The notes under the pieces were generated by a model. That model saw only the letters and a list, made by a program, of their open reading frames with translations. It ran no database searches and was not told the origin of the DNA. From Verrucomicrobiota bacterium (lineage in GTDB: Bacteria; Verrucomicrobiota; Verrucomicrobiia; Limisphaerales; UBA8199), in assembly GCA_029974925.1 (NCBI GenBank), contig JARKQH010000149.1:1-48800 (forward strand): a DNA stretch of 48,800 bases. The letters run 5' to 3'. This document shows positions 13,285 to 33,895 of this stretch, piece by piece (position 1 is the first letter of the stretch; each line of letters starts with the position of its first letter). Made by a program: the position numbers and the translations under genes.

Positions 13285-13360
13285 TCGGCTCCCAACGGGT
13301 TGCGGCCGGGTGTGATAAAACTTGACCATCGAGGTTCCGCCTGGCGAAATGAATGGCGTT

Positions 13361-14461
13361 ATGGCGAGGCCCTTGCGTGTACAGTATCCCGGCGCAGTCT
13401 ATCACCTGATGGCCCGCGGCGACCACGGGCAAGCGGTGTTCAAAGACGATTTCGATTGCAACCTTTTCCTGCAGACCCTGGGAGAGGCCTGTGAAAAGAC
13501 CGGCTGGCGGGTCTATGCCTACGTGTTAATGGCAAACCATTATCACCTGTTGGCGCAAACGCCGGAACCCAACCTGGTGGCGGGAATGAAATGGCTGCAG
13601 GGAGTTTACACGCAGCGATACAACGCGCGCCATGGGCTGCATGGACATCTGTTTCAAGGCCGCTACAAGTCCGTGTTGGTGGATGGGAGGCGGGATGAAA
13701 ACCATTTGCAGGTGGTGAGCACTTACATTCACTTGAACCCGGCCCGCGCGAGATTGATCCGGATCGGAGAGCAACCGCTCAAAGCATATCGGTGGAGCAG
13801 TTATCCGGCCTACCTCAGCCGGCCGAGTCAACGGCCGTGGTGGCTCAGCCCGGAACCGGTGTTGGAGAGCCTGCACCTTGGCCCTCGCGACACTCGAGGC
13901 TATGAGGCCTACCTGGAAGGGCGGACCTTGGAACTGGCCACCCAGGCCGGGCGCAGAAATCTCGAGGCTCAGTGGCACGCCGTGCGGCGCGGCTGGTACG
14001 TGGGCGGCGAGAGTTTCCGAAAGACCCTCGAGGAACACCTGGACCAAACTTCGCCCGCGTCGCGGCGGGACTCGCAGAGCGGGGCGGCCCGGGAGGCACA
14101 CGACGACGCGGCCGCCCTGCGGTTGCTACAGCGCGGCCTGGCGGCCTTGGAACTCGACGCAGCGGACCTTGCAGCCCTTCCCAAAAATGCCCCGCAGAAA
14201 CAAGTGCTGGCCTGCTGGTTGCGACAGCGCACAACTGTCTCGTTGCGCTGGCTGGGTGAGCGGCTGCACATGGGCCATTTCACCCGGGTGAGCCAGGCCG
14301 TGAGCCAGGTGAGACACCGTCCGAACCCCGTGCAGCAGCGGCTGCACAACCAGCTTGCCCAGGCGGGTGAGGGGAGCGCCGCCACCCCGCAGGGAGGCGG
14401 CCCCCCGGCGGGAGGAAAGGCCGTGAAGAGTCAGCCCAAGGCGAAGGGGGCGGGTGAATAA
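13361..14461 (+). CDS. REP-associated tyrosine transposase-like protein (Y1_Tnp/IS200-like HUH nuclease)
   Basis: 366 residues from the ATG at 13361 (MARPLRVQYPGAVYHLMARG), the standard start of this family; an upstream in-frame alternative at 13322 adds 13 unlikely residues. The HUH motif is NHYHLL (His60, His62), and the catalytic Tyr lies in YTQRYNARH (probably Tyr87), followed by HLFQGRYKSVLVD and the IHLNPARARL segment typical of the group. These enzymes nick single-stranded DNA through a 5'-phosphotyrosine link. The C-terminal ~150 residues carry a helix-turn-helix-like region (VSLRWLGERLHMGHFTRVSQ), seen in the longer environmental versions. The gene appears intact. The flanking 24-bp inverted repeats suggest a self-contained element rather than a domesticated RAYT serving scattered REP hairpins. 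Confidence 0.88.
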   Translation: MARPLRVQYPGAVYHLMARGDHGQAVFKDDFDCNLFLQTLGEACEKTGWRVYAYVLMANHYHLLAQTPEPNLVAGMKWLQGVYTQRYNARHGLHGHLFQGRYKSVLVDGRRDENHLQVVSTYIHLNPARARLIRIGEQPLKAYRWSSYPAYLSRPSQRPWWLSPEPVLESLHLGPRDTRGYEAYLEGRTLELATQAGRRNLEAQWHAVRRGWYVGGESFRKTLEEHLDQTSPASRRDSQSGAAREAHDDAAALRLLQRGLAALELDAADLAALPKNAPQKQVLACWLRQRTTVSLRWLGERLHMGHFTRVSQAVSQVRHRPNPVQQRLHNQLAQAGEGSAATPQGGGPPAGGKAVKSQPKAKGAGE

Positions 14462-24684: not shown

Positions 24685-26154
24685 TCAGGCCGAGGCGGCG
24701 CGGTTCTTGACTCCCAGCGCCTTGGCGACCCCCGCCGCGTAACGCGGGTCCGCCTTGTGGAAGTGGACCAACTGGCGCTGGATGATGGTCTCGGGCACGC
24801 CGGCCATGGCCGCGGCGATGTTCTTGAACAGCCGCTGCTGCTGCGCGGGCGTCATCAGCCGGAACAGGTTGCCAGGCTGCGTGTAATCATCGTTGCCTTC
24901 GCGGTGGTTGTACCGGTCCGCATCGCCGGAAATGCGCAGCGGCGGCTCGGCATACCGCGGGTCCTGCGCCGGACCGCCAAAGCTGTTGGGCTCGTAATAG
25001 GCATCCGTGCTTTGGACCGCGTCGAACCGCATCGGCCCGTCCAGGTGATACGTGTTCACCGGCACCCGCGGGCGGTTCACCGGCAGCATCTCGTAATGCG
25101 TCCCCACCCGGTACCGGTGCGCGTCCGCATACGCGAAAATCCGCGCCTGCAGCATCTTGTCCGGCGAAAAACTGATGCCCGGCACAATGTTCGAGGGGCT
25201 GAACGAGGATTGTTCCACCTCGGCAAAATAGTTTTCCGGATTGCGGTTCAGCTCCAGGATGCCCACCTCAATCAGCGGGTAATCCTTGTGCGGCCACACC
25301 TTGGTCAGATCAAACGGGTTCCACCGGTACGTCTCGGCGTCCCGCTCGGGCATGATCTGCACGCAAAACCGCCATTTGGGGCAATCCCCCCGCTCGATCG
25401 CCTCATACAAATCCCGCTGCGAGCTCTCGCGATCCTTCGCCACAATCGCCTCCGCTTCCTCGTTGGTCAGACACTGGATTCCCTGCAGCGTCTTGAAATG
25501 GAATTTCACCCAGAACCGCTCGTTCTTCGCGTTGAGGAAGCTGTAAGTGTGGCTGCCGTAGCCGTTGATATGGCGGTAACTCCGCGGCAGGCCGCGGTCC
25601 GACATCAGGATGGTCACCTGGTGCAGGCTCTCGGGGCTCAGCGACCAGAAATCCCACATCGCCGTGTTGCTCCGCAGGTTCGTGCGCGGATGCCGCTTTT
25701 GGGTATGGATGAAATCCGGGAATTTGTAGGGATCGCGAATGAAGAACACCGGCGTGTTGTTCCCCACCATGTCCCAGTTGCCCTCGTCGGTGTAAACCTT
25801 GAGGGCGAAACCGCGCACATCCCGCTCGGCATCCGCCGCGCCCCGCTCGCCCGCCACGGTCGAGAAACGCAGAAAACACTCGGTCTTCTTCCCGACCCGG
25901 GCGAACACGGCGGCCTTCGTGTACCGCGTGATGTCCCGCGTGATCGTCAGCGTGCCGTAGGCCCCCGAGCCCTTGGCGTGCACGGTGCGCTCCGGAATGC
26001 GCTCCCGGTTTTGATGGGCCAGCTTCTCCAAAAGCTGGTAGTCCTGCAGCAGCAGCGGCCCGCGCGGGCCGGCGGTCAGCGAGTTTTGATTGTCCGCCAC
26101 CGGGTTCCCCCCGGTGGTGGTCAACAGCGGCGTCTTCGGCTTTTTCGTTTTCAT
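24685..26154 (-). CDS. katA: Monofunctional haem catalase (small-subunit, clade 3-like)
   Basis: 489 residues, the usual length for small-subunit catalases. The distal His is in [13 protein letters not shown] (His near 58), the essential Asn in [19 protein letters not shown], and the proximal haem Tyr in [14 protein letters not shown], so all catalytic residues are present. It dismutates hydrogen peroxide to water and oxygen in the cytoplasm; no signal peptide is visible. It is followed after 7 bp by ankB and divergently transcribed from oxyR. A TTCAAC/TTCAAT promoter (26175-26203) sits directly next to an OxyR-like operator, pointing to peroxide induction. Confidence 0.96.
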
Positions 26155-26174
26155 AATTCTTGTTGTTCGCCCCT

Positions 26175-26203
26175 ATTGAACCCTTTTTCGAGGTATTGTT
26201 GAA
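26175..26203 (-). promoter_or_regulatory. Predicted katA promoter
   Basis: On the minus strand, TTCAAC (26203-26198) and TTCAAT (26180-26175) are 17 nt apart, 20 nt before the katA ATG. The -35 abuts the OxyR-like site at 26204-26240, the position at which OxyR contacts RNA polymerase at activated promoters. Confidence 0.55.
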
Positions 26204-26227
26204 ATATTTGTTTCCTCTGGTTACCAT
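26199..26227 (+). promoter_or_regulatory. Predicted oxyR promoter
   Basis: TTGAAA at 26199-26204 and TACCAT at 26222-26227 with a 17-nt spacer, ending 11 nt before the ATG at 26239. It overlaps the OxyR operator almost completely, which would give autorepression as in E. coli. Confidence 0.5.
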
Positions 26228-26240
26228 AGGCCAAAGCTAT
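26204..26240. promoter_or_regulatory. OxyR operator candidate
   Basis: Two 15-bp half-sites, ATATTTGTTTCCTCT (26204-26218) and ATAGGCCAAAGCTAT (26226-26240), are separated by exactly 7 bp. Against the known ATAGnTnnnAnCTAT-N7-ATAGnTnnnAnCTAT consensus they match 7 of 10 and 9 of 10 defined positions. The second half-site runs into the first two bases of the oxyR start codon at 26239; the in-frame second ATG at 26245 would clear it. Confidence 0.65.
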
Positions 26241-27120
26241 GGAAATGCACCAGCTTCGATACGCCGTCGCCGTCGCCCGCGCCGGGAATTTCTCGCGGGC
26301 GGCCGAGCACTGCCACGTGTCCCAGCCCTCGCTGAGCCAGCAGATTCAAAAACTCGAGGCCGAGCTGGGCGAGCGCCTCTTCGACCGGCTCAAGCGCCGG
26401 GCCCGGCTCACGGCCGCGGGCGAGCGGTTCCTCGTGCGCGCCACCCGCATTCTGGAGGAGGCCGAGGCGGCCCGGCGCGAGGCCCGGGAAAGCGGGGAGC
26501 TGCTGCGGGGGACGGTGACCCTCGGCGTGCTGCCGACCCTTGCGCCCTATCTCCTGCCCGAGGTTCTTGCGCGCTTCACGCGCCGCTATCCGGGCATCGA
26601 GGTGGTGGTCGAGGAGGACACCACGGCGGGCCTGGTGCGGCAGGCCGTGGCCTGCGAAATTGACTTTGCCCTGGCCAGCCTCCCGCTCCGCGAGCCGCGC
26701 CTGGCCGTGAAGGAACTGTTCACCGAGGAATTGTTGCTGGCCGTGCCGCGCACCCACCGGCTGGCCCGCAAACGGCTGGTCGCCCCCGCCGACCTCGCGG
26801 GCGAGCGGCTCATCGTGCTCAAGGAAGGCCACTGTCTCGGGGACCAGGTCCTCGGGTTTTGCGACCGCCGGGGACTGCGCGCCGCCATCAGCTTCCGCAG
26901 CGCCCAGTTGGAAACCATCCAGGCCATGGTCCGCAGCGGCCTGGGACTCTCCTTGATCCCGGCGATGGCGGCGCAGCATCCGGCCCGGCCCGGGCTCCAA
27001 TACCGTTCCTTCGAACCGCCGCGACCCTCGAGAAGAATCGTCGCGGTCTGGCCGGCGCAACGCCCCCCGGGCCGCGCCGCCACCGCCTTCCTCCAAGCCG
27101 TAACCCCCCCGGCGGATTGA
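26239..27120 (+). CDS. oxyR: Hydrogen peroxide-sensing LysR-type regulator OxyR
   Basis: 293 residues. The N-terminal winged helix-turn-helix is plain (GNFSRAAEHCHVSQPSLSQQIQKLE). The effector domain contains EGHCLGDQVLGFC, with cysteines at positions 199 and 208, the same numbers and spacing as the redox pair of E. coli OxyR; peroxide oxidises them to a disulphide and reshapes DNA binding. It is divergent from katA-ankB, with the OxyR site between them, so it should activate katA and repress itself. The start could be ATG 26239 or 26245 (MEM/MHQLRYAVAV). The gene is convergent with larC, 22 bp apart. Confidence 0.93.
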   Translation: MEMHQLRYAVAVARAGNFSRAAEHCHVSQPSLSQQIQKLEAELGERLFDRLKRRARLTAAGERFLVRATRILEEAEAARREARESGELLRGTVTLGVLPTLAPYLLPEVLARFTRRYPGIEVVVEEDTTAGLVRQAVACEIDFALASLPLREPRLAVKELFTEELLLAVPRTHRLARKRLVAPADLAGERLIVLKEGHCLGDQVLGFCDRRGLRAAISFRSAQLETIQAMVRSGLGLSLIPAMAAQHPARPGLQYRSFEPPRPSRRIVAVWPAQRPPGRAATAFLQAVTPPAD

Positions 27121-27142: not shown

Positions 27143-28459
27143 TCAACGGAGCTCCACCGCTTTCAGCGCGGCGGCATAGACCTCCTTGAGGGGGACCTCG
27201 GCTGCGGCGGCGACCTTGCGGCACGATTCATACTCCGGGGCGGCCTGGACCACGACGCCGTTGAGCCTGCCCAGCTTGACCGCCACCTCGCCGAAGGGCG
27301 TCTGCACGGCCACAAACTCCCGCTGGAGTTTCCGGCGCGCGGCTGAAGTCCGGCGCACGCCAAAGGCGCTGGTCTCCCGCAGCATCAGGGCGGTCAGCGG
27401 GTCCGCATCCGCTTCCGCGCACAGCACCGTCAGCAGCACGCCCGGCCGGTTCTTTTTCATTTGGACCGGCGTGTGGAACACGTCCAGCGCGCCCGCAGCC
27501 AGGGCCTGCTCGACAAAATGCCCGAGCACCTCGGGGCTCACGTCGTCCAGATTGGTTTCCAGCACCGCGACGGTGTCGCTTTCCCAGTCGCACGAGTTGT
27601 CCCGGGCGGTCGAGCCGCCCAGAATCGCGCGCAGGACGTTGGGCCGGGTTTTATTCTCCCGCGTGCCCAGGCCGTAACCGATCCGGTCGGCCACCAGCTC
27701 GCGCATGGGGCCGAAACTCTCGACCAACTCGGCCAGCAGCGCGGCGCCGGTTGGCGTGATCAGCTCGTGCGGCTCGTCGCATTGCGACACCGGAATGCCC
27801 CGGGCGCCCAAAATCGCCAGCGTGGCCGGCGCGGGAATCGGGAACCGCCCGTGCGCGCATTGCACCCACCCGAAACCATCCACCACCGGCCCGGCCAGCA
27901 CCCGCGGCCGCCCCAGCAGCTCCAAGCCAATGCAGGCCCCCACAATGTCCACAATCGAATCCACCGCGCCCACCTCATGAAAATGCACCTCCTCCGGCGG
28001 CAGACCGTGGATTTTGCCCTCGGCGACGGCGATGCGATGAAAGACGGCCAGCGCCCTGGCTTTCACCCAGTCCGAGAGCCCGCTGCGCGAAATCAGCTCG
28101 CGAATCTGCGCGTAGTTGCGTCCATGGCCGCCGGGGTCTGCCCCCGGCCCGTGCCCGTGGCCGGGTGGGTGAGGATGCGGGTGGTCATGTCCGGCCTCAT
28201 GCCCCGCGGCGTGTGAGTGGCCATGGCCCGGGCCGCCGTGGCGGTGACCGTGCGGGGGCTCCTCCTCGACATGCACATCAAATTTCACCCCTTCAATGCT
28301 GCCCTTGTGCCGGCGCTCCGCATGCAAGTGATACCCGGCAAGCCCCAGCTTCGCCAGCTCCCGCTCCAATTGCGGCAACTCCACCCCCAGGTCCAGCAAG
28401 GCCCCGAGAAACATGTCGCCGCTGATGCCGCTGAACAGGTCGAGATAGAGGGTTTTCAT
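27143..28459 (-). CDS. larC: LarC, nickel-pincer cofactor nickel-insertion enzyme
   Basis: 438 residues. MKTLYLDLFSGISGDMFLGALLDLG and the VHFHEVGAVDSIVDIVGAC segment are diagnostic of LarC. A His-rich loop at about residues 68-115 (HGHRHGGPGHGHSHAAGHEAG and onward) fits nickel handling. The C-terminal half has LETNLDDVSPEVLG and RETSAFGVRR. LarC uses CTP to insert nickel into pyridinium-3,5-bisthiocarboxylic acid mononucleotide, giving the cofactor of LarA-type racemases and epimerases. Here it is one continuous frame, unlike the frameshifted larC1/larC2 of Lactiplantibacillus plantarum. The start overlaps the larB stop by 4 bp (ATGA), so they are translationally coupled. LarA and LarE are not in the window. 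Confidence 0.92.
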   Translation of the reverse strand: MKTLYLDLFSGISGDMFLGALLDLGVELPQLERELAKLGLAGYHLHAERRHKGSIEGVKFDVHVEEEPPHGHRHGGPGHGHSHAAGHEAGHDHPHPHPPGHGHGPGADPGGHGRNYAQIRELISRSGLSDWVKARALAVFHRIAVAEGKIHGLPPEEVHFHEVGAVDSIVDIVGACIGLELLGRPRVLAGPVVDGFGWVQCAHGRFPIPAPATLAILGARGIPVSQCDEPHELITPTGAALLAELVESFGPMRELVADRIGYGLGTRENKTRPNVLRAILGGSTARDNSCDWESDTVAVLETNLDDVSPEVLGHFVEQALAAGALDVFHTPVQMKKNRPGVLLTVLCAEADADPLTALMLRETSAFGVRRTSAARRKLQREFVAVQTPFGEVAVKLGRLNGVVVQAAPEYESCRKVAAAAEVPLKEVYAAALKAVELR

Positions 28460-29229
28460 GGGCGGCGGGCGGCGGCGGCTTCGGCCAGGGCATTGATCTG
28501 GCTGGCGGCGTAGCCCGCGCCGAATCCATTGTCAATATTCACCACGGTGACCCCGCTGCCGCAACTGTTGAGCATCCCCAGCAGCGGCGCCAGCCCCCCA
28601 AAACTCGCCCCGTAACCAATGCTGGTCGGCACGGCGATGACCGGTTTGGACACCAGCCCGGCCACCACGCTGGGCAGGGCGCCTTCCATCCCCGCCACCA
28701 CAATAATCACATTGGCCGCTTGAATCGTGTCCAGCCGCCCGAACAACCGGTGCACCCCGGCGACGCCCACGTCCGCAATCCGCACCACGCGGTTGCCCAT
28801 GATGTCCGCTGTGATCGCCGCTTCCTCGGCCACCGGCAGGTCGCTGGTCCCGGCGCAAACGACCGCAATCGTTCCCGGCCGCTTCGGGAGCGGCCGCTTC
28901 TCCAACGTCAGGCAGCGGCCGGTTTCATGGTGCACCGCCCATTTGAACCGGCGCCGAACCGCCTTGGCGTGCTCGGGGGTGACCCGCGTGACGAGGACGC
29001 TTTGTTCGTGCTCAAGCAGTTTGGCGGCAATCTTCACCACCTGTTCCGGCGTCTTGCCGGCGCCGAAGATGACTTCGGGAAAGCCTTTTCTCAAGGCCCG
29101 GTGCGTATCCACCTGGGCAAAACCCAGGTTCGCCACCGGCGCGGCCTGGAAGGCGCGCAACACCTTCTCCCGGCTCACTTTCCCGGCGCGAAACCTTTCC
29201 AACAAATCAATCGCTTCCGTCGTGGTCAC
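28456..29229 (-). CDS. larB: LarB, nickel-pincer cofactor biosynthesis carboxylase/hydrolase
   Basis: 257 residues from a GTG at 29229 (VTTTEAIDLLERFRAGKVS); the longer frame upstream runs into the divergent promoter region and is basic and unlike the family. Family landmarks: FAQVDTHRALRKGFPEVIFGAGKT, IAVVCAGTSDLPVAEEA and VAGMEGALPSVVAGLVSKPVIAVPTS, the last being the PurE-like (AIR carboxylase) domain. LarB carboxylates nicotinic acid adenine dinucleotide at C5 and hydrolyses the phosphoanhydride, the first step of the nickel-pincer nucleotide pathway. It is the first gene of a two-gene unit with larC. The araC gene is divergent, 110 bp away. Confidence 0.9.
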   Translation of the reverse strand: MTTTEAIDLLERFRAGKVSREKVLRAFQAAPVANLGFAQVDTHRALRKGFPEVIFGAGKTPEQVVKIAAKLLEHEQSVLVTRVTPEHAKAVRRRFKWAVHHETGRCLTLEKRPLPKRPGTIAVVCAGTSDLPVAEEAAITADIMGNRVVRIADVGVAGVHRLFGRLDTIQAANVIIVVAGMEGALPSVVAGLVSKPVIAVPTSIGYGASFGGLAPLLGMLNSCGSGVTVVNIDNGFGAGYAASQINALAEAAAARRP

Positions 29230-29339
29230 GCGCGCACTCTGCCACACCTTTCGCCGCCGGTCACGCCGGAAAGCGGCCCGCACCGGCTTTCTCCACCCCC
29301 GCGATCGAAAGAGATTTACACGCCCCCGGGGTTTGGCCC

Positions 29340-30227
29340 ATGAAGAGGCTGATGAACGAACAATCCCCTCCGGCAGACCCAAGCCGGGGGCTTGAAATCG
29401 AAGTGCCGCCGGCGGTGGTGGCTTCCGCCAGCCGGTCGCAGCCGTTGCTGCGGGGCCTGCTGGCTGCCGGAGCCGGCTACTGCGTGAATCGGAACCGGTT
29501 TCAGCGCCCGCCCGGCGGCGGCCTGTTGCTGCTCTACTGTATCCGCGGCCGCGGATGGTGCGAGACGGACCGCCGCCTGCATCCCATTTGCCCGGGAGAC
29601 CTCCTGGTGTCGCCTTTGGACCGGCCGTTGAGGTGCGGCGCGCGCGGTTCGGCCCTCTGGACCTTCTATTGGGTTCAGGCAGGGGGCGCGCTGGTGCCCG
29701 ATTACACCCGAGCCCTGGCCGCGTCTCCCGGCCAGCCGGTCCGCCACCCGGGGCAGGAGCTGCAAATCACGCGGTTGTTTGGCGAGGTGCTCGAGGCGCT
29801 GCGCGGCGGAAGTTCCTTCAACCGGCTCCTTCACGCTTCAAGCGCCCTGGCTCATCTGTTGGCGCTGCTGATCGCGAAACAAACCGAGCGGTCGCCCGCC
29901 GAATCGGACACGGTCAGGAAGGTGGCCGAGGCCATCATCCACATGAGCGACCACCTGCAGGAGCGGCTGCGGGTGCCGGGGCTGGCCCGGCTGGCGGGTT
30001 TGTCGCCCGCCTATTTCGGGGAATTGTTCAAGGCGCAGACCGGGTGCTCGCCGCGGGAGTATCTCCAGTTGCTGCGGATGCATCGGGCCTGCCAGATGCT
30101 CCGGGAAACCAATTGGAGCGTCAAGGAAATTTCCGCCCGCCTCGGCTACCACGACCCCTTCCATTTCTCCCGCCGCTTCAAGGCCTTCGAGGGGCTCTCC
30201 CCCACCCAATACCGCCAGCGGGGTTGA
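29340..30227 (+). CDS. AraC-family transcriptional regulator
   Basis: 295 residues. The N-terminal part is a cupin-type sensing domain (YCIRGRGWCETDRRLHPI, followed by GDLLVSPLDRP, near residues 60-105). The C-terminal ~100 residues carry the double helix-turn-helix of the AraC/XylS family: LARLAGLSPAYFGELFKAQT and a VKEISARLGYHDPFHFSRRF segment ending in GLSPTQYRQR. Such proteins usually bind a sugar or other small effector and activate a neighbouring operon. The mtaB-like gene begins 73 bp downstream on the same strand, so this regulator is the obvious candidate to control it, possibly together with the divergent larBC. The effector is unknown. Confidence 0.9.
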   Translation: MKRLMNEQSPPADPSRGLEIEVPPAVVASASRSQPLLRGLLAAGAGYCVNRNRFQRPPGGGLLLLYCIRGRGWCETDRRLHPICPGDLLVSPLDRPLRCGARGSALWTFYWVQAGGALVPDYTRALAASPGQPVRHPGQELQITRLFGEVLEALRGGSSFNRLLHASSALAHLLALLIAKQTERSPAESDTVRKVAEAIIHMSDHLQERLRVPGLARLAGLSPAYFGELFKAQTGCSPREYLQLLRMHRACQMLRETNWSVKEISARLGYHDPFHFSRRFKAFEGLSPTQYRQRG

Positions 30228-30300
30228 ATCCGGGGAAAAACTCATGCCAATCGGGGATTTCTCCATTCCCGGCTGGCGGCCGGAAGGACAGAGTGCGGGT

Positions 30301-31683
30301 ATGACAACGTTTCGCGAGCTGGCCGTGGACCAGCCGGCCCGGCTGCTGTTTGGACTGGCCCCCAAACCCCTCACCACCCGTTTGGGCCTGACCCTTGGCG
30401 GCGGCTGTGTCTATCCCGAAATCAACTTCACCCTGCCGCCGATGCCGGTCGAGGCCGCGACCTTCCCCGAGGTGCGGGCCCAATACCGGCAGATCATCCG
30501 CGGGGTGCTGCAACGCGCGGTCGAGCTGGAAGCCCCGGGGCTGGTGGTCGAGTTCGAGACGCTGCCGCCGATGACGGAACACCCGGCCTGGGCCATCGAA
30601 TTGACGCGGATGCTCCTGGACGCCATGGCGGAGGCGCACGCGAAGCACGGCCTCAAGACCGTCCTGCGCATTACGCCGAACGACACCCGGGAAATGGAGC
30701 GGCCGCCCCGCATGCGCAGCGGGCCGCTGTATGAGGCCATGCTGGAGACCTTTGAGGGTTGCGCCGCGGCGGGCGCCGAACTGCTCAGCATCGAGTCGGT
30801 GGGCGGCAAGGAAGTCCACGACGACGCCCTGGTCATGGCGGACCTCGGCGGCGTCCTGTTCGGCCTGTGCGTTCTGGGGGTGCGCGACATGCGTTTTCTC
30901 TGGACGCAACTGGACCAAATCGCCCGCCGGCACGGCGTGCATTGCGCGGGGGACACCGCCTGCGGCTTCGCCAACACCGCCATGGTGCTGGCGGAACAAA
31001 AAATGATCCCCCGCGTGTTCGCGGCCGTGGTGCGCGCCGTTTCCGCCGTGCGGACGCTGGTCTGTTATGAATGCGGCGCGGTGGGGCCGGGAAAGGACTG
31101 CGGCTATGAGAATCCGATTCTCAAGGCCATCACGGGCTTTCCCATGGCCATGGAGGGGAAAACCGCCGCGTGCGCGCATTTGAGCCCGCTGGGGAACATC
31201 GCCGCCGCGACCTGCGACACCTGGAGCAACGAGTCGGTCCAAAACCTCAAGTTGCTGGGCGGCATGGCGCCCACCTGCTGCGTCGAGCAGCTCATTTACG
31301 ATTGCCGCCTCATGAACGCCGCGCTGGCCGATGGCCCGGACGCCGCGCGGCTTTACCGGAAGTGGATGGTGGCCTCCGACGCCCCGCGCGACCCCCAGGC
31401 GTTCGTCCTGGCGCCCGACAGCGCGGTTCGCATTGCCCAGGCGATTGTCGCGGCGCCCGACCCCTATCACGCCGGCCAGGCCGCCGCCTCCACCGCCCTG
31501 CAACTCCTCCGCGACGCCCAGCGCGACGGCGCGCTCCGATTGCCCCCCCGCGAAATCGGCTGGCTCGACCGCCTCCAAAAAACCCTGGACGCGCTGCCGT
31601 CTTCCGAACCCGAGTTCATATCCCACATGATGGGCCAGGTTGACCGCGGCAAGTTTGTGCCGGGCGATTACGGCCTCGAGTGA
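30301..31683 (+). CDS. mtaB: MtaB-like methanol:corrinoid methyltransferase
   Basis: 460 residues from the ATG at 30301, close to the ~460 of archaeal MtaB. The chain is strikingly like MtaB throughout: GGGCVYPEINFTLPP near 34, LVVEFETLPPMTEHPAW, LRITPNDTREMERPPRMRSG, SIESVGGKEVHDDAL (Glu165), AGDTACGFANTAMVLAEQKM (Cys221), GPGKDCGYENPILKAI (Cys267), EGKTAACAHLSPLGNIAAAT and WSNESVQNLKLLGGMAPTC. Glu165, Cys221 and Cys267 correspond to the zinc-ligand motifs (one Glu, two Cys) of MtaB, which activates methanol and methylates the corrinoid protein MtaC. No mtaC, mtaA or corrinoid-activator gene is within the window. An AraC regulator lies just upstream. Methanol is the likely substrate; another methoxyl or alcohol donor is possible. 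Confidence 0.88.
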   Translation: MTTFRELAVDQPARLLFGLAPKPLTTRLGLTLGGGCVYPEINFTLPPMPVEAATFPEVRAQYRQIIRGVLQRAVELEAPGLVVEFETLPPMTEHPAWAIELTRMLLDAMAEAHAKHGLKTVLRITPNDTREMERPPRMRSGPLYEAMLETFEGCAAAGAELLSIESVGGKEVHDDALVMADLGGVLFGLCVLGVRDMRFLWTQLDQIARRHGVHCAGDTACGFANTAMVLAEQKMIPRVFAAVVRAVSAVRTLVCYECGAVGPGKDCGYENPILKAITGFPMAMEGKTAACAHLSPLGNIAAATCDTWSNESVQNLKLLGGMAPTCCVEQLIYDCRLMNAALADGPDAARLYRKWMVASDAPRDPQAFVLAPDSAVRIAQAIVAAPDPYHAGQAAASTALQLLRDAQRDGALRLPPREIGWLDRLQKTLDALPSSEPEFISHMMGQVDRGKFVPGDYGLE

Positions 31684-31785
31684 GCGGACCCCCGGCCGCA
31701 ACGTCCCCGGCAACGCGCCGCCGCCGCGCGCCGGGACTTTTCCCTTTATTTCCAAGGCCTCGCGCCTAAGCTTCTCGGCGCGAAT

Positions 31786-33201
31786 ATGGCTTTGCGATTG
31801 TTCAACACGCTTTCGCGGTCGGTCCAGGAGTTTGTCCCGCTTGACCCGGCGGGGCGAAAGGTGGGCTTGTACTGCTGCGGCCCCACGGTGTACGACTTTG
31901 CCCACATTGGAAACTGGCGCACGTTCGTCTTCGCCGACCTGGTGCGCCGCGTCCTCGAGTTCAACGGCTACGAGGTCCGGCACGTGATGAACATCACGGA
32001 CGTGGACGACAAGATCATCCGGCGGGTGCGCGAGACCGGCCGCGCGCATCGCGAGTTTACGGCGCAGTATGAGGAGGCCTTTTTCGCGGATTTGAAGACG
32101 TTGAATTGCCGCGCCCCGCACCTGACCCCCCGCGCGACCGAGCATATCGAGGACATCATCGCCCTGATCGCCCGCTTGCTGGAGCGGGGCCTGGCCTACA
32201 CCGCCCCCGACGGCTCGGTGTATTTCAGCATCGAAAAGTACCGCGGCTGCGGCTGCCGCTACGGCCAACTGGTCAACCTCAACTTCGACGCCCTGCGGGT
32301 GGGCGAACGCGTCCGCAGCGACGAATATGAAAAGGAGGCGGTGGCGGATTTCGCCTTGTGGAAGGCGCGTGTTCCCGAGGATGGACCGGTGTTCTGGCCC
32401 AGTCCGTGGGGCCCGGGCCGCCCCGGCTGGCACATCGAATGCAGCGCCATGAGCATGAAGCTGCTCGGCCCCAGCTTTGACCTGCACCTCGGGGGCGAAG
32501 ACCTGATTTTCCCGCATCACGAGGACGAGATTGCGCAGAGCGAAGGGGCGGGGATGCAGACCGCCGGGCAGCGGTTTGTGAAATACTGGCTGCACGGGGC
32601 GCATCTCCTGGTCGAAAACAAGAAGATGAGCAAGTCCCTGGGCAATTTCTTCACGCTGCGCGACCTGCTGGACAAAGGCTTTGCCGGCCGCGAAATCCGG
32701 CACCTGCTGTTGACCGCCCATTATCGCGAGACGTTCAATTTCACGCTCGAAGGGCTGCGGGCGGCGCGCGCCGCCTTGCAGCGCATTGACGAGTGCCTGG
32801 GCAAGCTGCGCGAGCGCGCCGGCGGGCTGAAAGGCGCCGAAGACTCCGCCGTCCTCGAGGCTTTTGCCGGGGCGATCAATGACGATCTCAACGTGTCGCG
32901 CGCCTGGAGCGTGGTGTTCGAGTGGGTGCGCGAGCTCAACCGCCAGCTTGCGGAGAACCGGCTCGACGCGGCCGGGGCGGCGGCCGCGCTGGCCACCTGG
33001 GACCGCCTGGACACGGTGCTGGGCGTGGGCGCGCCGGCGGAAATCGAGGTGCCCGCCGAGATCAACGCCCTCCTGGCCGCCCGCCAGGAAGCGCGCAAAG
33101 CCCGGGACTTCAAACGGGCCGACGCCCTGCGCGACGAACTCAAGGCCAAAGGCTGGATCATCGAAGACACGCCGAAGGGCGCGCGGGTCAAACGCCTCTA
33201 A
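31786..33201 (+). CDS. cysS: Cysteinyl-tRNA synthetase
   Basis: 471 residues, the standard length. The class I signatures are FAHIGNW (HIGH) near residue 38 and NKKMSKSLGN (KMSKS). Zinc-binding Cys and His residues are seen in LYCCGPTVYDF, GWHIECSAM and IFPHHEDE. The C-terminal DALR-like anticodon region ends with KARDFKRADALRDELKAKGW. It charges tRNA-Cys in the cytoplasm. It is followed after 19 bp by tmk and then a DUF4404 gene, forming a compact housekeeping unit. The start ATG at 31786 gives the usual MALRLFNTLSR N-terminus. Confidence 0.97.
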   Translation: MALRLFNTLSRSVQEFVPLDPAGRKVGLYCCGPTVYDFAHIGNWRTFVFADLVRRVLEFNGYEVRHVMNITDVDDKIIRRVRETGRAHREFTAQYEEAFFADLKTLNCRAPHLTPRATEHIEDIIALIARLLERGLAYTAPDGSVYFSIEKYRGCGCRYGQLVNLNFDALRVGERVRSDEYEKEAVADFALWKARVPEDGPVFWPSPWGPGRPGWHIECSAMSMKLLGPSFDLHLGGEDLIFPHHEDEIAQSEGAGMQTAGQRFVKYWLHGAHLLVENKKMSKSLGNFFTLRDLLDKGFAGREIRHLLLTAHYRETFNFTLEGLRAARAALQRIDECLGKLRERAGGLKGAEDSAVLEAFAGAINDDLNVSRAWSVVFEWVRELNRQLAENRLDAAGAAAALATWDRLDTVLGVGAPAEIEVPAEINALLAARQEARKARDFKRADALRDELKAKGWIIEDTPKGARVKRL

Positions 33202-33220
33202 CCCCTCCAGTGTGCCTGCC

Positions 33221-33895
33221 ATGAAAGGTCTGTTTATCACGTTCGAGGGCACGGAGGGCAGCGGCAAATCCACCCAGATTTCACTCCTGGCCGAGCGCCT
33301 CCGCCGCGAAGGCCACCGCGTGCTCACGCTCCGCGAGCCCGGCGGCACGCCCATCGGCGAGGAAATCCGGCACACGCTCAAGCACAGCACCGCCAACGCG
33401 GCGATGACCCCCGAAGCCGAGTTGCTGCTCATGAACGCGAGCCGGGCCCAGTTGGTGCGCGAAGTGATTCGTCCCGCGCTGGCGGAGGGTGAAATGGTCT
33501 TGTGCGACCGGTTCTACGATTCCACAACCGCCTACCAGGGCTACGGGCGGCAACTGGACCTCGGCATGGTCCGCCAAATGATCGAGGTGGCGGTCGGGGA
33601 CACCCGGCCGGACCTGACCCTGCTGTTGGTCGTGCCGGCCGACGTCAGCGAACAACGCCGTCTGGCCCGCCAGGCCACCCTCCCCTTTGTCCGGGACCGC
33701 ATGGAGGAGGGGGACCGCGCCTTTTTTGAGCGGGTGGCGCGGGGCTATCAGGCTATCGCCGCCGCCGAGCCCAACCGGGTGTGCGTGCTGGATGCCACGG
33801 GAAAAGTCGAGGAAGTCCAGGCGGCGATCTGGCGCGCGGTCGAGGCGCGCTTGAGGAATCGCGGGGGACAGGTATCTTGCCAGAGGAAACCCTGA
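33221..33895 (+). CDS. tmk: Thymidylate kinase
   Basis: 224 residues from the ATG at 33221 (MKGLFITFEGTEGSGKST), which places the P-loop GTEGSGKST at residues 10-18 as in the family. DRFYDSTTAYQGYGR is the DR(F/Y) substrate-binding segment, and the LTLREPGGTPIGEEIR region contains the dTMP-binding Arg. RQATLPFVRDRMEEGDRAFFERV forms the lid. It phosphorylates dTMP to dTDP with ATP. It sits 19 bp after cysS and 7 bp before the DUF4404 gene, suggesting one transcript. Confidence 0.96.
   Translation: MKGLFITFEGTEGSGKSTQISLLAERLRREGHRVLTLREPGGTPIGEEIRHTLKHSTANAAMTPEAELLLMNASRAQLVREVIRPALAEGEMVLCDRFYDSTTAYQGYGRQLDLGMVRQMIEVAVGDTRPDLTLLLVVPADVSEQRRLARQATLPFVRDRMEEGDRAFFERVARGYQAIAAAEPNRVCVLDATGKVEEVQAAIWRAVEARLRNRGGQVSCQRKP

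Follow-up and report, generated by a model that had tools for sequence, protein, structure and literature searches.

The window, by which we mean the whole 48.8-kb stretch of DNA analysed here, carries a full-length mtaB gene whose product we tentatively propose to feed methyl groups from methanol, via a shared corrinoid protein, to homocysteine, giving methionine, while being unlinked to any mtaC of its own. We put the probability of this reading, which is built on homology and gene content, at roughly 0.5. Its parts carry different weight. Methanol is quite probably the substrate, given its homology to enzymes in both halves of the MtaB tree, and the corrinoid protein encoded on contig C477 is in good likelihood the partner, as linkage in relatives and co-occurrence suggest; homocysteine is slightly favoured as the main methyl acceptor.

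In the proposed mechanism, MtaB with its Glu/Cys/Cys zinc site would activate methanol and attach its methyl group to Co(I) in the C477 corrinoid protein, from which the adjoining homocysteine S-methyltransferase (HcyMT) would pass it to homocysteine to yield methionine. A RACo-type protein would return the inactive Co(II) form of the corrinoid protein to service. The net route would thus equal the second half-reaction of MetH, with methanol instead of methyl-folate as the donor. As a counterpoint, a full-length MetH (1275 aa, contig C250) is also encoded, so that methionine synthesis is possible without the MtaB route. The genes concerned are collected in Table 1.

Table 1. Positions of mtaB, the gene preceding it and the candidate partner genes elsewhere in the genome.
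Feature	Position	Strand	Remarks
AraC-family regulator	window, 29340..30227	+	PF12833 + PF02311
mtaB (methanol:corrinoid-protein co-methyltransferase, acetogen-type clade)	window, 30301..31683	+	460 aa; zinc ligands Glu165, Cys221, Cys267
Stand-alone corrinoid protein	C477:14674-15309		PF02607 + PF02310
Homocysteine S-methyltransferase (HcyMT)	C477:15318-16196		directly after corrinoid gene; PF02574, 232 bits
URO-D protein, MtaA/CmuA-type	C477:16303-17316		next after HcyMT; best models are MtaA/CmuA-type methyltransferases
RACo-type corrinoid reactivase	contig C213		RACo C-terminal + middle domains, 2Fe-2S domain

The mtaB gene, its product and its probable substrate

The mtaB frame has no internal stops; an earlier in-frame ATG lies at 30244, and the Pfam match begins at residue 3 counted from the 30301 start. 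Against the MtaB profile PF12176 the protein scores 556 bits (7.1e-167) over profile positions 3-460 of 460, full-length and far above the gathering cut-off of 25. The sole match in a PDB sequence search is the Methanosarcina barkeri MtaB (2i2x_A, 2e-96), which is also the sole PDB match below E 0.001 in a structural search with the AlphaFold model (mean pLDDT 90.7), at a TM score of 0.93. The Glu and two Cys residues of Table 1 are invariant in 75 aligned MtaBs, M. barkeri included, and align with the residues that, in the 2i2x structure, are the zinc ligands of the M. barkeri enzyme. All 59 positions invariant across both MtaB clades are kept, and deviations at conserved positions are nil. 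The earlier note on this DNA, which had described a genuine full-length MtaB with Glu/Cys/Cys motifs in a verrucomicrobial host, was right on both counts, the host belonging to the order Limisphaerales.

Comparison with five relatives gives dN/dS values of 0.09-0.16 (NG86, with dS near saturation). The gene is, far beyond chance, intact and under selection, not a relic; a vestigial MtaB was rejected on dN/dS and residue conservation. The reading that mtaB is a leftover with no current function is accordingly given very little chance. It can draw on the patchy spread of the gene, present in 27 of 293 genomes of the order (approximately 9%), a few of which hold fragments or broken copies only (G181, G182 and G023), but it sits poorly with the low dN/dS, with the unaltered conserved positions and with an AraC-family gene on the same strand that stops 73 bp short of mtaB. 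In genome G119, too, the gene immediately before mtaB is of the AraC kind (45% identity), and AraC-type matches are present in 11 of 35 MtaB loci; the AraC-family protein is a probable regulator of mtaB.

The other neighbours of mtaB in the window are genes for LarB and LarC, cysteinyl-tRNA synthetase (CysS) and thymidylate kinase. The LarB and LarC genes, for the synthesis of the nickel-pincer nucleotide cofactor, lie side by side on the minus strand (27143-29382) and adjoin the AraC-mtaB pair, LarC carrying a His/Gly-rich stretch. LarB, LarC and CysS are not syntenic with MtaB in the loci of relatives and therefore say nothing on its function. A minus-strand frame opposite mtaB (30178-33432, 1084 aa) was set aside as a shadow ORF within GC-rich DNA. 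Further off, the window encodes a 1450-aa protein with four passenger-associated-transport repeats (PF12951; 857-5209), a protein with an IS200-like (Y1) transposase domain (13322-14461) and a catalase gene divergent from an OxyR-like LysR regulator (24685-27120), an ordinary oxidative-stress pair.

The MtaB tree, built from 75 sequences from Verrucomicrobiota, other phyla, the window's order and the phylum to which a Halanaerobiaceae relative belongs, falls into two clades split with a bootstrap of 99: M. barkeri with L170-L177 (9 sequences), and 65 sequences including the window protein. This agrees with the methanogen-type and acetogen-type clades reported before (PMC5770442), the window MtaB lying in the acetogen-type clade together with the MtaB of locus L204. 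The latter locus encodes a pterin methyltransferase, MtaC and MtaB of 29.7, 22.3 and 52.8 kDa with stop codons TGA, TAA and TAG; an ATCGAT-N12-ATTAAT box ends 27 bp before the first ATG and a GGGAGG lies 8 bp before it. Since promoter, GGGAGG, masses and stop codons all match the published operon, we take L204 to be mtaA1C1B1 of Moorella thermoacetica, which is upregulated about 2^9-fold on methanol (PMC13391211). The window MtaB is 53% identical to this Moorella protein and 40% identical to that of M. barkeri and, with these on either side, stands between two enzymes experimentally tied to methanol. A placement outside MtaB, in a family with another proven substrate, which the earlier note had raised, was not seen. 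Within the tree, an Acidobacteriaceae MtaB (L037) nests in the verrucomicrobial clade; no MtaB relatives were found in viral contigs or plasmid records.

The NCBIfam equivalog for methanogen MtaB (NF040651) gives the window protein 443 bits, below the cut-off of 720. Because the Moorella MtaB also falls short, at 410 bits, this threshold seems to delimit the methanogen clade, not the function, and we do not claim the window protein as a methanogen-type MtaB. Drift towards another small O-methyl or alcohol substrate is conceivable at 40-53% identity, all the more as ethanol is also activated by the M. acetivorans MtaB (PMC12450230) and the two clades differ by fixed residues at six positions. 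These six differences are, however, clade-level, the window residues being shared with the methanol-induced Moorella enzyme, and the pan-family positions and zinc ligands are all retained, which makes a different substrate improbable. MTTB was ruled out as an alternative substrate enzyme, PF06253 having no match in the genome.

Candidate partners and the proposed methyl acceptor

Whole-genome profile searches gave no match on the window contig to PF02310, PF02607, PF14574, PF01208, PF00809 or PF06253, and tblastn of partner proteins against the 48.8-kb window returned nothing below E 0.3; there is no mtaC on that contig. The earlier observation that no corrinoid protein, reactivase or second methyltransferase is encoded within 18 kb of mtaB is thereby upheld. 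Its description of an MtaB without MtaC or MtaA holds for the window and fails for the genome, where, as it had itself anticipated, candidates are found elsewhere: a corrinoid protein, HcyMT and URO-D protein on C477 and a RACo-type reactivase on C213.

The C477 corrinoid protein, which displays the DxHxxG motif as GDLHDIG, is the only stand-alone methyltransferase-type corrinoid protein with both B12-binding domains in the genome, so that the outcome of a genome devoid of corrinoid proteins, also contemplated in the note, did not arise. Both domains occur at two further spots, in MetH and in a 321-aa frame on C236, the latter probably a regulator since it starts with a MerR-like DNA-binding sequence.

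Next in the cluster, the URO-D protein scores 166 bits against the MtaA/CmuA model TIGR01463 (cut-off 235) and carries a His-Cys/Cys zinc motif (HxC and C). In URO-D proteins, motifs of the His-Cys-Cys type have been tied to sulfur or selenium rather than oxygen substrates (PMC10418091). The protein is probably a second, thiol-type methyltransferase acting on the same corrinoid protein, and may serve as a further donor or acceptor enzyme. In all, the genome yields fourteen URO-D matches in approximately 13 frames on 12 contigs, one of them HemE-like; the others that were inspected differ in their zinc motifs, which suggests several methyltransferases.

As to where the methyl group ends up, the same MtaB and corrinoid partner could deliver it mainly to tetrahydrofolate, by way of the folate domain of MetH or an unrecognised protein, for oxidation or assimilation as a C1 unit. 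The presence of MetH, whose folate domain could be a methyl acceptor, leaves room for this, as do the folate methyltransferase adjoining MtaB in acetogen relatives and the analogous Ruegeria system, which supplies both folate and homocysteine (PMC12478193). Nevertheless, the three PF00809 hits in the genome are two DHPS-like proteins and MetH, with no MtvA/MtqA/MtgD-type pterin methyltransferase among them, and the same search found no dedicated folate methyltransferase of the acetogen MtaA type. A pterin methyltransferase of this type adjoins MtaB in Bacillota loci only and in none of the Verrucomicrobiota-type loci, and the corrinoid gene is adjoined by HcyMT instead. We thus consider delivery mainly to folate unlikely, and the corrinoid/folate C1 route put forward in the note loses ground to transfer to homocysteine. 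A PF00809 hit on C219 initially suggested an MtvA, yet its match is to DHPS; this 321-aa protein (locus L166, 1303-2268) is a divergent second DHPS-like protein with a score under the DHPS cut-off.

The note had further suggested pectin methyl esters as an example of a methanol source. In favour of this idea, which is weakly supported, there is a single partial match to pectinesterase (108 bits), located within a frame of 1440 aa on C434; sugar or pectin genes are not widely recurrent among the MtaB-locus neighbours inspected.

Linkage of MtaB and corrinoid proteins in relatives

Gene order was compared across 35 related MtaB loci from a protein scan, several of which end at contig ends, so that the counts are lower bounds. 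A close mtaC is present in at least 24 of these, a RACo gene in at least 12, a URO-D gene in at least 9 and an HcyMT gene in at least 6, in orders such as URO-D-mtaC-mtaB (L032) and mtaC-mtaB-HcyMT-RACo (L033, L035). Conserved-neighbour clustering returned genes for MtaC, RACo, URO-D, HcyMT and AraC as the recurrent neighbours of MtaB.

In these bacteria, the corrinoid proteins cluster together (bootstrap 100) and divide into two sister groups, the first almost wholly adjacent to MtaB and the second, which includes the C477 protein, mostly adjacent to HcyMT. In the window's own MtaB subclade, a corrinoid gene lies next to MtaB at three loci (L029, L031 and L064), each of whose corrinoid proteins belongs to group two and is 72% identical to the C477 protein; just outside the subclade (L030, L032, L034, L036 and L062) the MtaB-linked corrinoid protein belongs to group one. 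The simplest account would be that MtaB changed partners close to where the subclade arose and lost its linkage either afterwards or at the same time, branch support within the subclade being weak (35-83).

Alternatively, a dedicated MtaC may be present in the organism but lie in the unassembled few percent of its genome, in which case the detachment would be only partly real. The genome is indeed a draft (5.73 Mb, 487 contigs, 97.6% complete, 4.4% estimated contamination), and mtaC adjoins mtaB in most relatives. Against this, the sequence around the window MtaB is free of mtaC for 30 kb on one side and 17 kb on the other, and orphan MtaBs with several kb of flank recur (G171, G193, G201, G210 and others), in genomes that show a C477-type corrinoid protein only, or none. 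Five genomes with orphan MtaB (G097, G119, G171, G193 and G201) give two corrinoid-query matches each, one of the group-two type and the other, where listed, MetH; in G210, which is 86% complete, no stand-alone corrinoid protein was found, a point against the main reading. An overlooked MtaC is consequently a poor prospect in our estimation.

Co-occurrence across the order is consistent with a partnership between MtaB and the C477 protein. A stand-alone corrinoid protein is present in 23 of the 27 MtaB genomes versus 66 of 266 others (Fisher p 8e-10, a value that ignores kinship), and RACo accompanies the corrinoid protein in 83 of 89 genomes versus 8 of the 204 lacking it, kinship again being ignored. 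Many RACo matches across the order contain one in-match stop (TGA, TAA or TAG), which may be genuine or may come from the match running on past the gene end. Against the partnership, MtaB is patchy within families f1 and f15, nearly all of whose members have the corrinoid protein. HcyMT adjoins most C477-type corrinoid genes across the family. The corrinoid-HcyMT-URO-D cluster (L012, C477 14674-17316; relatives L144-L162) is conserved in family genomes that have no MtaB and is for this reason not MtaB-specific; the corrinoid-HcyMT(-URO-D) cluster seems to be a general module into which MtaB plugs. As a broader and more speculative suggestion, to which we give somewhat less than even chances, one Limisphaerales lineage may have dropped the dedicated MtaC and rewired MtaB to this module, creating a scattered methanol-fed methionine synthase that bypasses folate and coenzyme M.

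Significance and comparison with known systems

In anoxic environments, mtaB is a marker gene by which methanol use is traced. Because approximately 9% of the order's sampled genomes have a gene of this family, mtaB reads may be credited to methanogens or acetogens when they stem from a different sort of bacterium. Should methionine be where the methyl group ends up, mtaB would here denote a biosynthetic methyl supply, not growth on methanol. The unlinking would furthermore represent a natural case of partner exchange, in which a substrate enzyme gives up a dedicated corrinoid protein for a shared one.

The gene itself is of a known kind, since a paper of 2008 already noted a close homologue of MtaB in the verrucomicrobial genome of Opitutaceae TAV2 (PMC2474590); of floodplain genomes, 1.6% were likewise seen to have mtaB (PMC11264602), and Acidobacteriota express the gene in peat (PMC10805028). 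The detached, methionine-linked arrangement is a variant, and no description of an unlinked MtaB with a homocysteine-linked corrinoid protein was found in the literature searched, which excludes most subscription journals.

Among the closest known systems is MtaA1-MtaC1-MtaB1 of M. thermoacetica, whose MtaB belongs to the same clade and whose MtaC hits the family profile that the C477 corrinoid protein also matches. However, the three Moorella genes form one operon with a folate methyltransferase, whereas the window MtaB is on its own and it is genes for HcyMT and the URO-D protein that come after the corrinoid gene. MtaBC-MtaA of M. barkeri shares the fold and the zinc ligands of its MtaB with the window protein, but belongs to the other deep clade, uses coenzyme M as the acceptor and has linked genes. 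The Type 1 mlp gene clusters (PMC10418091) also combine an MtaA-like URO-D protein bearing a His-Cys-Cys zinc motif with a corrinoid protein and a reactivase, although they contain several URO-D genes, compared to the single adjacent one found here with HcyMT in between.

In its proposed mode of operation, the system closely resembles MtgBCDE, with the split methionine synthase, of Ruegeria pomeroyi, where glycine-betaine demethylation and the making of methionine share a single corrinoid protein and the genes do not lie together (PMC12478193). Judging from the genes, a stand-alone corrinoid hub between a substrate methyltransferase and HcyMT, with dispersed genes, may be a shared concept, and the nearest NCBI model for the C477 corrinoid protein is that of MtgC, with a score under its cut-off. 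Unlike in Ruegeria, where the substrate enzyme is a glycine betaine methyltransferase of the MTTB type, the substrate enzyme here is MtaB, and MetH is kept. As there is no PF06253 match and no extra PF00809 methyltransferase of the MtgD type, we do not file the window system as MtgBCDE, and say only that it may work like it.
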